From positions 62,001 to 126,000 of the forward strand of contig MPNJ01000008.1 in assembly GCA_002238965.1 (NCBI GenBank): a DNA stretch of 64,000 nucleotides, written 5' to 3'. Shown one piece after another: positions 28,332-32,160 of this stretch. Under the pieces are notes generated by a model. It did not search any database. It saw nothing but the letters and a program-made list of their open reading frames with translations, and was not told the DNA's origin. Source of the stretch: Nitrospinae bacterium bin107 (GTDB lineage Bacteria; UBA8248). Made by a program: the position numbers and the translations under genes. Numbering within the stretch: the stretch's first letter is position 1; each line of letters begins with the position of its first letter.

Positions 28332-28604
28332 ATGAGCCGAGCGCTGGTGATGCACCCGAAAGACAACGTGGCCACGGTGCTTGAGGATGTCTCCTCAGAG
28401 CAGAGCGTGAAAATCGAAGGCGGGGTTGAGACAATCACGCTCTCCGCAACTGAATCCATTCCATTTGGACACAAAATTGCGCTGCGTAAGATCCGCTCGA
28501 ACGCAAAAGTGCTCAAATACGGCGAAGTCATCGGCACCGCCACACAAGAAATACCCGCAGGCTGTCACGTTCACGTCCATAACATCAAGAGCACAAGAGG
28601 CTAG
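28332..28604 (+). CDS. UxaA family hydrolase, small SAF-domain subunit
   Basis: 90 residues forming an SAF domain like the N-terminus of altronate/galactarate dehydratase: ALVMHPKDNVATVLEDV, SIPFGHKIALRKI and KVLKYGEVIGTATQEIPAG with a final CHVHVHNIKS. In the fused enzymes this domain precedes the large catalytic domain; here it is a separate polypeptide. GGAG lies 8 nt before the ATG, and the gene begins 22 nt after the ferredoxin stop. Confidence 0.87.
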   Translation: MSRALVMHPKDNVATVLEDVSSEQSVKIEGGVETITLSATESIPFGHKIALRKIRSNAKVLKYGEVIGTATQEIPAGCHVHVHNIKSTRG

Positions 28605-28606
28605 GC

Positions 28607-29785
28607 ATGGCCCGGAAAAAAGCAACTCCCACTTTCTGGGGCTACAGGAGACTTGAAGGTCCTCCGGGTGGCCGGAATCATCTCGCCATCGTCAGCGGAA
28701 TGGACAATTCCAACCCCATCGTCCGCAGAATCGGTTCGCTGGTGCGAGACGCCACCCCCGTCAACACCTCGTTCGGACGCGCCCTGATGGGCGAGGACGA
28801 GACGCAACACTGGCGGGTTATGGGACACACCGCCGCCCACCCGAACGTCGGGGCCGCCATCATCGTGAGCCTCGAACCCAAGAGCGCCAACGCCATCGCG
28901 GAAGTAGCCGCAAGAACGTCTCCCTGGATGCCCATAGAAGCCGTGAACATCCAGGAGATTGGAGGCACGCTCAGCACAACCTCGCATGTCGTGGAGCTCG
29001 CCACGAAACTTTCCGCCCATCTCGCATCGGCCAAGCGAGTCCGCTGTGAGTTGGGCGAACTCACCATCGGGGCGGAATGCGGAGGCTCGGATACGACCAG
29101 CGGCGTCATCTCGAACCCCGTGACGGGCATGGTCGCCGACAGGGTCGTGGAAGCGGGGGGTTCGGTTATCTTTTCCGAAACGCTGGAAATCGTGGGCGCC
29201 GAGCATCTTCTCGCCCGCCGTGCCGCGGACAGGAAAACGGCGCGAAAAATCATCGATTCCGCAAAGAGCGCCGTCGATTACGCCGAAAGCATCGGCGTCG
29301 ACTTCATCGGCTCGAACCCGGCGCCGGATAACATCCGGGGCGGTCTATCGTCCATCGAGGAAAAAAGCCTGGGAGCCATCAAGAAAGCGGGCAGCCACCC
29401 CATCGTCGAGGTCGTCGGTGTGGGAGAGCGTCCTTCGAAGAAAGGCACCATCTTCGCCGACGCTCCCTGCGCGGGCGTTGAGAACATTTCCTCTTTGGCG
29501 GCCAGCGGAGCGCAGGCGATCGTTTTCTCGACCGGAATCGGCAACCCCATCGGCCATCCCATCTCTCCCACCATCAAGGTGACCGGCAATCCCCGTACCG
29601 CGCGGTCGATGGCCGAGAACATCGACGTGGACATCAGCGGCGTCATGGAGGGGACGATGCGAATCGATGAGGCGAGAGATCTGCTCGAAAAAGAACTGAT
29701 AGCGGTGATGAGCGGTAAACTCACGACATCGGAGCTTCTCGGAGAAACCGAACTCACGGTCAGCAGGGCCGCATTAAGCCTCTAA
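28607..29785 (+). CDS. UxaA family hydrolase, large catalytic subunit
   Basis: 392 residues corresponding to the catalytic domain of altronate/galactarate dehydratases, which remove water from sugar acids with Fe2+. Motifs include HLAIVSGMDNSN near the start, GELTIGAECGGSDTTSG (the family ECGGSD) and DFIGSNPAPDNIRGGLSSIE. It starts 2 nt after the small subunit, so the two should be translationally coupled. The substrate could be altronate, galactarate, sulfolactate (SuyB-like) or another hydroxy acid; the small plus large split is common to the altronate and sulfolactate types. Confidence 0.87.
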   Translation: MARKKATPTFWGYRRLEGPPGGRNHLAIVSGMDNSNPIVRRIGSLVRDATPVNTSFGRALMGEDETQHWRVMGHTAAHPNVGAAIIVSLEPKSANAIAEVAARTSPWMPIEAVNIQEIGGTLSTTSHVVELATKLSAHLASAKRVRCELGELTIGAECGGSDTTSGVISNPVTGMVADRVVEAGGSVIFSETLEIVGAEHLLARRAADRKTARKIIDSAKSAVDYAESIGVDFIGSNPAPDNIRGGLSSIEEKSLGAIKKAGSHPIVEVVGVGERPSKKGTIFADAPCAGVENISSLAASGAQAIVFSTGIGNPIGHPISPTIKVTGNPRTARSMAENIDVDISGVMEGTMRIDEARDLLEKELIAVMSGKLTTSELLGETELTVSRAALSL

Positions 29786-29832: not shown

Positions 29833-30345
29833 TTAAAAGCCCATTCCCACGATCAGTCGATTCCAGGTGTTGATGAGGGCGATGGCGCCGAGAAGCTCCA
29901 CTATCTGCGCTTCAGAATAGTGCGCCTTCAGCGCTTCAAACGTCCCGTCCGAAACGCTCACCCCCTGCGTGCTCTCCTCGCAAAGGCGAAGCGCCGCCTT
30001 CTCCTTCTCATCGAAGACGTCACTCGAGGAACCCTCTTGCGCGGCTTTCGTCTTATCGTCTCCTGCCTTGTGCATCCTTGCCATGTTGGAATGCATGTTG
30101 GTGCAAAAATGACATCCGTTGAGCACCGATGCGCGAATGTTCAAGATTTCCTTGAAGCCGACGTCGATCTCCCCCGGGCCGTCCGCCACCGTGGTCAAGC
30201 TCAGCAAAGAACGCAAAAAATCCGGTTTGTGGGCCAGTGCCTTCACAGGCGGAATCACGACACCGAATTGCTTTTGCAGATTCTCCATGATGCGTTTCGC
30301 GGATGCTTCCGCCTGCTCGGGCTCTAACAAGGAAATCCGTGGCAT
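29833..30345 (-). CDS. carboxymuconolactone decarboxylase/AhpD-like protein
   Basis: 170 residues from the ATG at 30345, which has AAGGAG 6 nt upstream. The CMD motif NGCHFCTNMHSN places the redox CxxC at Cys78 and Cys81 and the proton-relay His at 85, as in AhpD peroxidase-related proteins. The ending LLGAIALINTWNRLIVGMGF is characteristic of the larger CMD subgroup. Probable role: peroxide or thiol metabolism, or decarboxylation; unresolved. It diverges from the CoA-transferase operon across a palindrome-containing region. Confidence 0.85.
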   Translation of the reverse strand: MPRISLLEPEQAEASAKRIMENLQKQFGVVIPPVKALAHKPDFLRSLLSLTTVADGPGEIDVGFKEILNIRASVLNGCHFCTNMHSNMARMHKAGDDKTKAAQEGSSSDVFDEKEKAALRLCEESTQGVSVSDGTFEALKAHYSEAQIVELLGAIALINTWNRLIVGMGF

Positions 30346-30383
30346 TCCATGCTCCTTCGATTGATTCATCTGGAAGTATACTT

Positions 30384-30577: not shown

Positions 30578-31405
30578 ATGAGCAAGCAAATGTCCTTACG
30601 AGAAGCCGCTTCTCTCATTGAAGGAGGAGACGCAATAAGTCCCGGCGGCACCCTCTTACACAGAACGCCCGCCGCCCTCATCCGTGAAATCGCGCGCGCG
30701 GGCCTTCGGGATCTCACGCTCATCAAACCCTCTCCCGGTTACGACGCCGATCTCCTTTGCGCCGCAGGGGCCGTGAAGAGAATCATCAGCGGCATCGTCA
30801 CCTTCGAGGCGGAATTCGGATTGGCGCCTCACTACCGGAAGGCGATAGAGAAAGGACTTGCCGGCCTGACCGAGCACGCCTGAGCCAGCGTTCTTGCTGG
30901 GCTGCGGGCCGCAGCCTACGGCGTTCCCTTCCAGCCCATTCGCGGTTTCGACGGGAGCGACATCCCGGAGCAAAGCGGCATCTTCACGATGGAAGACCCC
31001 TACACGAAAGAGGAACTCTATGCGATTCCCGCTCTCAAGCCGGACTGGGCATTGATACACGTCCAGAAGTCTGACCCGCAGGGAAACGCGCAAATCCTGG
31101 GCAACCAGCAATTCGACGTTGAAATGACGCGCGCGGCGCAAAAAGGGGTCATTCTCACGACCGAGAAAATCGTTGGCTCAGAAGAGATCGCAGCGGAGCC
31201 GGAGAGAACCACTATTCCAGGCTTCCTCGTCAAAGCAGTCGTGGAAAAGCCGGGCGGGGCGTCTCCCTGCAGTTGCCACCCATACTATGGGGTCGACAAA
31301 ACTGAAATGAGTCGTTACATGACCTTGACCCAAAGCCAGGACGGGCTTCGGGAATATCTGGAAAGCACCGACGAATCACACGCACAAGATGCGGTGACAA
31401 AATAG
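30578..31405 (+). CDS. CoA-transferase alpha subunit with one in-frame TGA (candidate selenocysteine)
   Basis: Read through its single TGA (30881-30883, codon 102), the frame encodes about 275 residues, the normal length of family I CoA-transferase alpha subunits (glutaconate, 3-oxoacid and IpdA-like). The N-terminal part has the glycine-rich CoA loop ISPGGTLLHRTPAALIREI and GYDADLLCAAGAVKRI. After the TGA the protein continues without damage: AGLRAAAYGVPFQP, IPALKPDWALIHVQKSDPQG and ERTTIPGFLVKAVVEKPGGA. The TGA follows EHA, where I recall relatives having Cys (EHAC). The beta gene follows 2 nt after the TAG. Options: selenoprotein, recent nonsense mutation or base error, or two polypeptides (30578-30883, and reinitiation at ATG 30989). 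Confidence 0.8.
30900..30916 (+). promoter_or_regulatory. SECIS-like stem-loop downstream of the in-frame TGA
   Basis: GGCTGCG (30900-30906) pairs perfectly with CGCAGCC (30910-30916) around a GGC loop. The loop begins 24 nt after the TGA and has G in its first positions, which fits the geometry I recall for bacterial selenocysteine insertion elements. A smaller hairpin (CCAGC with GCTGG, 30885-30900) lies between it and the TGA. GC-rich coding DNA can form such stems by chance. Confidence 0.4.
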
Positions 31406-31407
31406 CG

Positions 31408-32160
31408 ATGGGCAGCCGCCTGGCCTCGTTGCCCGAGCACGTAATCCGCGCGGGAAACCAGATGGCCGTCACGCTCTCGCGCCTCATCGAAGACGGCGAG
31501 AAAGTATTCCACGGCGTCAACTCCCCGCTTCCCATGATCGCGATCTTTTTGGCCAAGAAACGACATGCCCCCAATTGCTCGCTCATAGAAGTCGCGGGTT
31601 CGGTGGACCCCAAACCGCGCTTCATGCCGAACAGCACGGCCGACCCTGAACTCTGCCACGGCGCGGCATCTATGTTCTACAACCCGGACATGTACGATCT
31701 TTTTGCGCGCGGCGGGGTGGACATGGCTTTCCTGGGAGCCGCCCAACTCGACAAACAAGGGCGAGCCAACATGAGCTACATCGGCGACCCGTTCCAGCCG
31801 AAAGTGAGGCTTCCCGGCGGAGGGGGAGGCGCCGTCATCATGCCTCAGGTGAAACGCACCGTCATATGGCGAACTGTGCACGACAGGCGATTTCTCGTAC
31901 CCCGGGTCGACTTCTCTACCCAATCGGGCAGACTGAGCCACTTGGTGACACCCATTGCCTTGTTCGAGAAAAAATCTACCGGGCTCGAGATTGCCAGTGT
32001 TCACCCTGGACACTCGGTGGATGAAGTGATCGAGAATACCGGCTTCGAACTGGAACGCCCGAGCGTCGTGGCGCAAACCCACGCGCCAAGCGCCGAAGAA
32101 CTGGGTGCCCTGGAGGAACTCGACCCGGATGGCGTACGCTTTACGGAATTCCGTTTTTAG
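31408..32160 (+). CDS. CoA-transferase beta subunit
   Basis: 250 residues, intact. It pairs with the preceding alpha gene. PDMYDLFARGGVDMAFLGAA, LDKQGRANMSYIG and LPGGGGGAVIMPQVKRTVI are typical of the beta subunit of IpdAB/glutaconate-type CoA-transferases. The catalytic Glu-Asn-Gly segment seen in classical 3-oxoacid CoA-transferases is not visible, which resembles the IpdB branch, where the complex acts on a ring or side-chain acyl-CoA by hydrolysis. Such enzymes work in the cytoplasm on acyl-CoA or organic acids. Its intactness argues that the operon is still under selection. Confidence 0.85.
   Translation: MGSRLASLPEHVIRAGNQMAVTLSRLIEDGEKVFHGVNSPLPMIAIFLAKKRHAPNCSLIEVAGSVDPKPRFMPNSTADPELCHGAASMFYNPDMYDLFARGGVDMAFLGAAQLDKQGRANMSYIGDPFQPKVRLPGGGGGAVIMPQVKRTVIWRTVHDRRFLVPRVDFSTQSGRLSHLVTPIALFEKKSTGLEIASVHPGHSVDEVIENTGFELERPSVVAQTHAPSAEELGALEELDPDGVRFTEFRF

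Follow-up and report, generated by a model that had tools for sequence, protein, structure and literature searches.

A putative selenocysteine in the alpha subunit of a CoA-transferase-fold enzyme from uncultured Nitrospinota

An in-frame TGA in an otherwise intact gene raises the question of whether the gene is decayed or wrongly assembled, whether the code is changed, or whether the codon specifies selenocysteine (Sec). Such a codon lies in a gene for the alpha subunit of a CoA-transferase-fold enzyme, within a stretch of 64,000 nt that was analyzed whole and is here called the window; coordinates are window positions. The features concerned are as follows.

30578..31405, + strand: alpha subunit of the CoA-transferase-fold enzyme; its translation gives 275 residues, with TGA read as Sec, and a TAG stop
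30881..30883, + strand: in-frame TGA, codon 102, proposed selenocysteine and sole interruption of the alpha frame
31408..32160, + strand: beta subunit, 250 aa, supported by the ORF, Pfam, PDB alignment and beta alignment

A preliminary description, made from the sequence alone, had claimed that the frame is continuous but for this single TGA and that an intact beta subunit follows 2 nt on. Both claims held, with the beta start at 31408 lying 2 nt past the alpha stop. The Pfam domain PF01144 (CoA_trans) matched residues 5-224 of the read-through alpha subunit (3.4e-21), and therefore continues across the TGA; the same domain was matched in the beta subunit (4.4e-19). The source genome comprises 4.37 Mb in 60 contigs, with 95.92% completeness and 3.23% contamination, and a sequence search for close relatives gave five, three of them from assemblies named Nitrospinota. 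Other TGA-bridged frames in the window were scanned and judged by eye, and no other convincing case was found; an Rfam scan of the window gave no match. Standard gene calling would be expected to truncate the alpha gene at the TGA.

Conservation of the codon was analyzed in 18 genomes of the phylum with a profile built from six copies (E <= 1e-20), and a match was obtained in 17 of them. The 45 places found comprised one fragment, 14 full TGA copies and 30 paralogues, half of them closer and half weaker. TGA occupied the same column in all 14 phylum orthologues that reach it, and the closer paralogues carried Cys there (15/15). Sec and Cys forms are co-resident in 13 of these 18 Nitrospinota genomes. 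The only sequence examined among the 15 weaker, clade-3 paralogues, L047, had His. The single fragment, from genome G013, is C-terminal, lies at a contig edge and does not reach the TGA column; no orthologous TGA-type copy was found in G009, G010 and G011 in this profile search.

The search outside the phylum covered 386 relatives at E <= 1e-60 and nine genomes of the phylum of G038 at E <= 1e-50. It gave two further copies with TGA at the same column, in G038 and G388 from another phylum, the G038 copy being 43% identical to the window protein, and Cys in the remaining 13 outside-phylum copies examined. Two further phyla (four and two genomes) had Cys copies only, all of them already examined. 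Relatives were present in 219 plasmid records, of which five were examined (Cys in four, His in one), and none was found in the viral contigs searched. In the alignment of the read-through product with its homologues, which the preliminary description had asked for, the column reads TGA in 16, Cys in 28 and His in 1 of 45 copies. The conserved TGA and its Cys counterparts are shown directly by these sequences. The earlier claim that relatives have Cys held for the close families (28 of the 29 non-TGA copies) and failed for the characterized enzymes, none of which has Cys at the column (Gln in GctA, Gly in AibA and Glu in IpdA).

A referee might read the gene as a recent pseudogene, or the TGA as an assembly error, and in favor of this, the Cys codons are one base away from TGA. 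Against it stand the identical TGA in 16 genomes of two phyla and a nonsynonymous difference far below the synonymous one after the TGA. Because 14/14 phylum orthologues carry it, the TGA is neither a lone sequencing error nor a fresh mutation. Downstream of the TGA, five same-genus rows gave pN 0.016-0.022 against pS 0.278-0.402, and three more distant rows gave pN 0.167-0.179 against pS 0.596-0.611, five rows of other lengths being left out; upstream, all 13 rows gave pN 0.013-0.223 and pS 0.338-0.926. Purifying selection thus acts on the alpha subunit beyond the TGA. Pseudogene-type frame damage in relatives, which had been named beforehand as an observation that would refute a Sec residue, was not seen, and the pseudogene or error reading is all but excluded.

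The machinery for Sec decoding was also demonstrated by sequence. As a test of membership among bacterial selenoproteins, selA, selB, selC and selD were looked for in the source genome and all were found, which supported the Sec interpretation put forward in the preliminary description and contradicted the lack of selB, selC and selD that it had named as refuting. The tRNA-Sec on contig C32 scored 75.9 bits (gathering score, 47), with the anticodon loop CTTCAAA and the anticodon TCA (UCA). The matches to selA (513.1 bits) and selB (385.7 bits) lie about 1 kb apart on C14, and selD (333.9 bits) has one in-frame TGA of its own, in GG-U-GSK, in agreement with the UxxK motif given for SelD (PMC13188914).

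G000 C32:206681-207643, strand not given: selD with in-frame TGA (L020 / L104), with a stem and GGA loop after the TGA

This selD serves as an internal control, the genome needing Sec decoding for SelD too. Among the genomes with TGA copies, tRNA-Sec was found in 15/16, the exception being the 67% complete G002, and a full-length SelA match in 13/15, G388 lying outside this test; no SelA was found in G002, and G017 gave only a weak, partial match of 43 bits. The tRNA-Sec was also present in all seven tested outside-phylum genomes having Cys copies only, and therefore co-occurrence with the machinery does not discriminate between the two forms. Genera g1 and g6 repeatedly showed a second, weak match to the SelA family (about 38-43 bits), e.g., at G000 C45:52172-52513, which is likely another PLP enzyme.

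Bacterial SECIS elements are hairpins located just downstream of the UGA with a small apical loop containing G (PMC1088965). Their usual spacing in bacteria is 16-37 nt. A hairpin of this kind is proposed for the alpha gene.

30899..30917, + strand: proposed bacterial SECIS hairpin with an 8-bp stem and a GGC loop at 30907-30909, the loop 23 nt past the TGA

The hairpin starts 16 nt downstream of the UGA. In the 14 phylum TGA copies, the nine codons from +6 to +14 after the TGA had a synonymous difference of 0.117, compared to a mean of 0.449 over 267 scored codons; this was the lowest of 266 windows of codons, and a value as low occurred in none of 100,000 random nine-codon sets. The same nine codons in the 15 Cys paralogues gave 0.626, the highest value, with 253 of 254 windows lower. 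Strong synonymous constraint on the hairpin is thus confined to the TGA copies. Since the peptides over these codons are nearly identical in the TGA and Cys types (GLRAAAYG and GLRASAYG), the constraint is most simply one on the RNA. In L041, with 24% GC3, the only CTG and the only CGG of the gene both fall within the constrained stretch, and the same stretch is present in both TGA copies of the other phylum.

Support from folding was less uniform. The consensus folds into the 8-bp stem with the GGC loop, and over the 16 rows, six of nine pairs are invariant, two vary on one side only (U-A/U-G and G-C/G-U) and the outermost is unpaired in nine rows; covariation in the stem did not exceed that of shuffles. 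The hairpin was in the minimum-energy fold of 9/14 rows over 42 nt, with another fold in the other five, and single-sequence folding of a 63-nt segment of the window gave a different fold with weak support (z -1.3). On the + strand of the window, eight of 912 TGA triplets are followed by a stem of 9 bp or more in the SECIS zone, and the alpha TGA, with 9 bp, reaches this length. The hairpin is SECIS-like in position and loop, and this criterion of membership among bacterial selenoproteins was counted as met, although the covariation was uninformative.

The other way to read through the codon is a different amino acid, e.g., Trp, inserted by suppression or under a changed code. Some other bacteria do read UGA as Trp or Gly. 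Against this reading, the counterparts have Cys, once His, and never Trp or Gly; among the 55 window ORFs that a greedy call gave at a minimum of 150 aa, 24 end in TGA, which is therefore not reassigned wholesale; the Sec set is complete, with a UCA tRNA; and the hairpin constraint is confined to the TGA copies. The reading is very unlikely. Pseudogene, sequencing error and changed code were accordingly all rejected, on the grounds of the conserved TGA, purifying selection, hairpin constraint and the use of TGA as an ORF end.

In the proposed decoding, UGA codon 102 would be read as Sec by SelB and tRNA-Sec under direction of the hairpin; without decoding, alpha translation would end after 101 residues. 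Insertion of Sec at codon 102 is inferred, in the absence of selenium data, and was judged very likely. That the gene encodes a Sec-containing CoA-transferase-fold enzyme is also very likely (probability about 0.9), on the same understanding that insertion is deduced from sequence and not from experiment.

The position of residue 102 bears on what Sec might do. The AlphaFold2 model of the alpha subunit (pLDDT 90.3, pTM 0.89) had its best PDB matches among IpdA, GctA and AibA chains, the top Foldseek match being 6con_A (TM 0.91). Residue 102 opens a helix (102-114) in the model, directly after a conserved Glu-His-Ala, of which Glu99 is present in 45/45 aligned copies and His100 in 42/45. By pairwise and profile alignment, the TGA column corresponds to residue 117 of chain 6co6_A, a Glu, and to Ala in 6coj_A. 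The title of 6coj reads 'Rhodococcus jostii RHA1 IpdAB E105A COCHEA-COA complex', and the TGA column therefore equals Glu105 of IpdA, a match shown by sequence. Glu105 is reported to be needed for IpdAB activity (2018 IpdAB paper). The location of Sec102 in the active site is inferred, without coordinates, a complex or distances.

The preliminary description had named Glu as the catalytic residue of the family. This was refined, in that the classical Glu belongs to the beta subunit, as Glu54 in GctB (PMC5380842), and the Sec column in the alpha subunit matches IpdA Glu105. In AibB, Cys56 replaces the catalytic Glu of GctB (PMC7756340). The window beta subunit places Val62 in this AibB Cys56/GctB Glu54 column without any gap, with Glu61 immediately before it. 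Val at the column and Glu one residue earlier were found in 13/14 betas beside the phylum Sec copies. The 14th, L037 (G002 C33, from the 67% complete genome), has a broken frame in its contig, through assembly error or decay. The betas of both Sec copies from the other phylum had Val at the column and Asn before it, and those of the Cys copies, where found, had Ile, Val or Thr preceded by Asn; for five Cys copies (L046, L048-L050 and L060), no following beta was found, and the L092 beta is cut. Glu at the column itself occurred solely beside His copies, namely, L047 and a Sinorhizobium plasmid copy. The readable betas that partner Sec or Cys copies thus lack Glu at the usual catalytic column, as shown by sequence, although a register shift to Glu61 is not excluded in the clade of the window.

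The enzyme is probably not a classical CoA transferase, an inference made without an activity assay. IpdAB, which has Gly57 in place of the beta Glu, showed no transferase activity when acetyl-, propionyl- or succinyl-CoA was supplied (PMC5380842), and AibAB is a decarboxylase (PMC7756340). Because loss of the beta Glu accompanies non-transferase chemistry in both, we favor a Sec that is catalytic and works on a CoA ester. In the proposed mechanism, the Sec102 selenolate would act, either as a nucleophile or in acid/base catalysis, on a CoA ester bound at the alpha/beta active site and would cleave a C-C or acyl bond, in a chemistry nearer to IpdAB and AibAB than to classical CoA transfer through a Glu anhydride. 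The chemistry and the substrate are both inferred. For Sec, the preliminary description had left the choice between new chemistry and a structural or redox role. Since the Sec column matches the IpdA Glu105 mutated in 6coj, a catalytic role was judged likelier than a structural or redox one, again by inference; on balance the evidence leans towards a role that is catalytic and non-redox, for a reaction that is untested.

Two alternatives accept Sec insertion and differ on its function. In the first, the enzyme would be an ordinary CoA transferase using beta Glu61 in a shifted register, with Sec102 assisting or lining the pocket. The Glu just before the column in 13/14 phylum Sec-clade betas supports it, as does the Glu at the same place in the Cys-type plasmid relatives L108 and L109. 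Against it, Asn takes that place in both other-phylum Sec copies and in the readable Cys-copy betas of the beta alignment, and Val falls at the column without any gap. This alternative is the less likely one but remains possible in the clade of the window. In the second, Sec102 would be inserted for redox purposes and form a selenenyl-sulfide, e.g., with Cys231 or Cys233, in a switching or protective role. In its favor, Cys231 is Cys in 14/14 phylum Sec copies and in 0/15 Cys paralogues, Cys233 is nearly general, and most uncharacterized selenoproteins are probably redox proteins according to a 2026 review (PMC13188914). However, Cys231 is Ala in both other-phylum Sec copies, there is no CxxU or UxxC motif, and the Sec column is that of the catalytic Glu of IpdA, which together make a redox function unlikely.

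Within the preferred reading of a catalytic Sec, a bolder version can be drawn, which we would put at well under even odds. Here Sec102 would attack an acyl-CoA or beta-keto-CoA ester as a covalent nucleophile, giving a selenoester in place of the Glu-CoA anhydride of the beta subunit; the catalytic residue would have shifted from the beta to the alpha subunit, and two lineages would have upgraded it from Cys to Sec.

Comparison with characterized systems shows where the enzyme departs from them. It shares the two-subunit fold with IpdAB, the COCHEA-CoA hydrolase of steroid breakdown (6co6, 6co9, 6coj and 6con), and like IpdAB it has a functional residue in the same column of the alpha subunit and no Glu at the beta column (Gly57 in IpdAB, PMC5380842). 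It differs in having Sec for Glu105, identity of about 30% and other neighbors; the steroid-breakdown cluster was absent among the neighbors tested, which were the dehydratase-like, CMD and RraA-like proteins of the window only. AibA/AibB, the 3-methylglutaconyl-CoA decarboxylase (5mzw and others), shares the fold and family and gave the best beta matches, but its thiol replaces the classical Glu in the beta subunit (Cys56, PMC7756340), where the window has Val62 and carries Sec in alpha instead, and AibA has Gly at the Sec column. AibB Cys56 is not strictly essential (PMC7756340). The class I glutaconate CoA-transferase GctAB (1poi) has the same fold and subunit layout; unlike the window enzyme, GctA has Gln at the Sec column, and Glu54 of GctB corresponds, via the AibB Cys56 column, to Val62, with Glu61 adjoining.

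The history of the residue was analyzed in a tree for which the residue under test was masked. Two Cys/Sec changes were needed, forced by well-supported branches, and a single change was obtained in 0% of 200 bootstrap trees, with the caveats of long branches, above all that of L047, and odd composition in L081. Therefore, either Sec had two origins, or it had one and was lost at least twice. The hairpins of both Sec clades are almost identical, which is compatible with one ancient origin, but convergence is possible because the encoded peptide is also conserved.

An RraA-like protein is encoded beside the alpha/beta pair in the window, as are the following.

28332-29785, strand not given: SAF-domain protein of 90 aa and galactarate/altronate-dehydratase-like protein of 392 aa, adjacent and split like a two-subunit lyase
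29833-30369, - strand: CMD/AhpD-like protein, with CxxC, not CxxU; its best NCBIfam match, far under the cut-off, is a YciW-related (seleno)protein model

The pair at 28332-29785 might, as a guess, be the sulfolactate lyase SuyAB. In G038, the alpha/beta genes come after the C-terminal part of a thiolase and an acyl-CoA dehydrogenase, with an acyl-CoA dehydrogenase and an aldehyde dehydrogenase downstream. In G014 (L098, C222), the order is alpha(Sec)-beta-alpha(Cys), followed by a CoA-binding protein, and the coordinates in G015 C29 and G016 C60 agree. No second beta was found after the Cys-type alpha of L098, and at loci of this type, two alternative alphas may possibly share one beta. Beyond beta, no conserved neighbor was found by Pfam among chosen proteins of L095, L097, L098, L103 and the window, with partial coverage.

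The Cys-type relatives L108 and L109 are plasmid-borne, in Nocardioides sp. JS614 and Mycolicibacterium chubuense NBB4. Their neighbors include an annotated cobalamin-independent methionine synthase II family protein and monooxygenase genes, in what we take to be ethene/vinyl chloride clusters. Published work assigns such plasmid genes a 'CoA transferase' role in the final step, which leads from 2-ketoethyl-CoM to acetyl-CoA (PMC6440738 and PMC11507031). In this subfamily, the genes run alpha then beta, adjoined by coenzyme M epoxide-pathway genes, and Cys stands at the Sec column. Because this Cys, within Cys-Cys, lies at the IpdA Glu105 column, the CoA-transferase chemistry assumed for L108 and L109 may be open to question.

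The gene resembles known prokaryotic selenoproteins in its UGA-Sec with Cys homologues, its downstream hairpin and the presence of Sec machinery. The preliminary description knew of no characterized selenocysteine CoA-transferase, and this held in the literature searched. No CoA-transferase is listed among the 119 prokaryotic selenoprotein families and subfamilies in Table 1 of the May 2026 review (PMC13188914), and no such family was found in the sections bearing on CoA or transferase of the 2022 review and the 2008 GOS, 2025 deep-Sep and 2005 Sargasso papers. No report of a selenoprotein CoA-transferase, or one from Nitrospinota, was found in the open-access literature searched, and the NCBIfam (June 2026) selenoprotein models gave no match at E <= 1 to 30 aligned members. 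The gene very likely represents a new selenoprotein family, on strong computational evidence and with the mechanism inferred.

If selenium is confirmed, the CoA-transferase superfamily would join the selenoproteins, and, if the proposed reading is true, Sec may here serve acyl or C-C bond chemistry and not redox. The genomes with both forms offer a natural comparison of the advantage of Sec over Cys. In the Cys-type subfamily, found also on ethene-degradation plasmids, a presumed catalytic thiol may have been hidden by the label 'CoA-transferase'.
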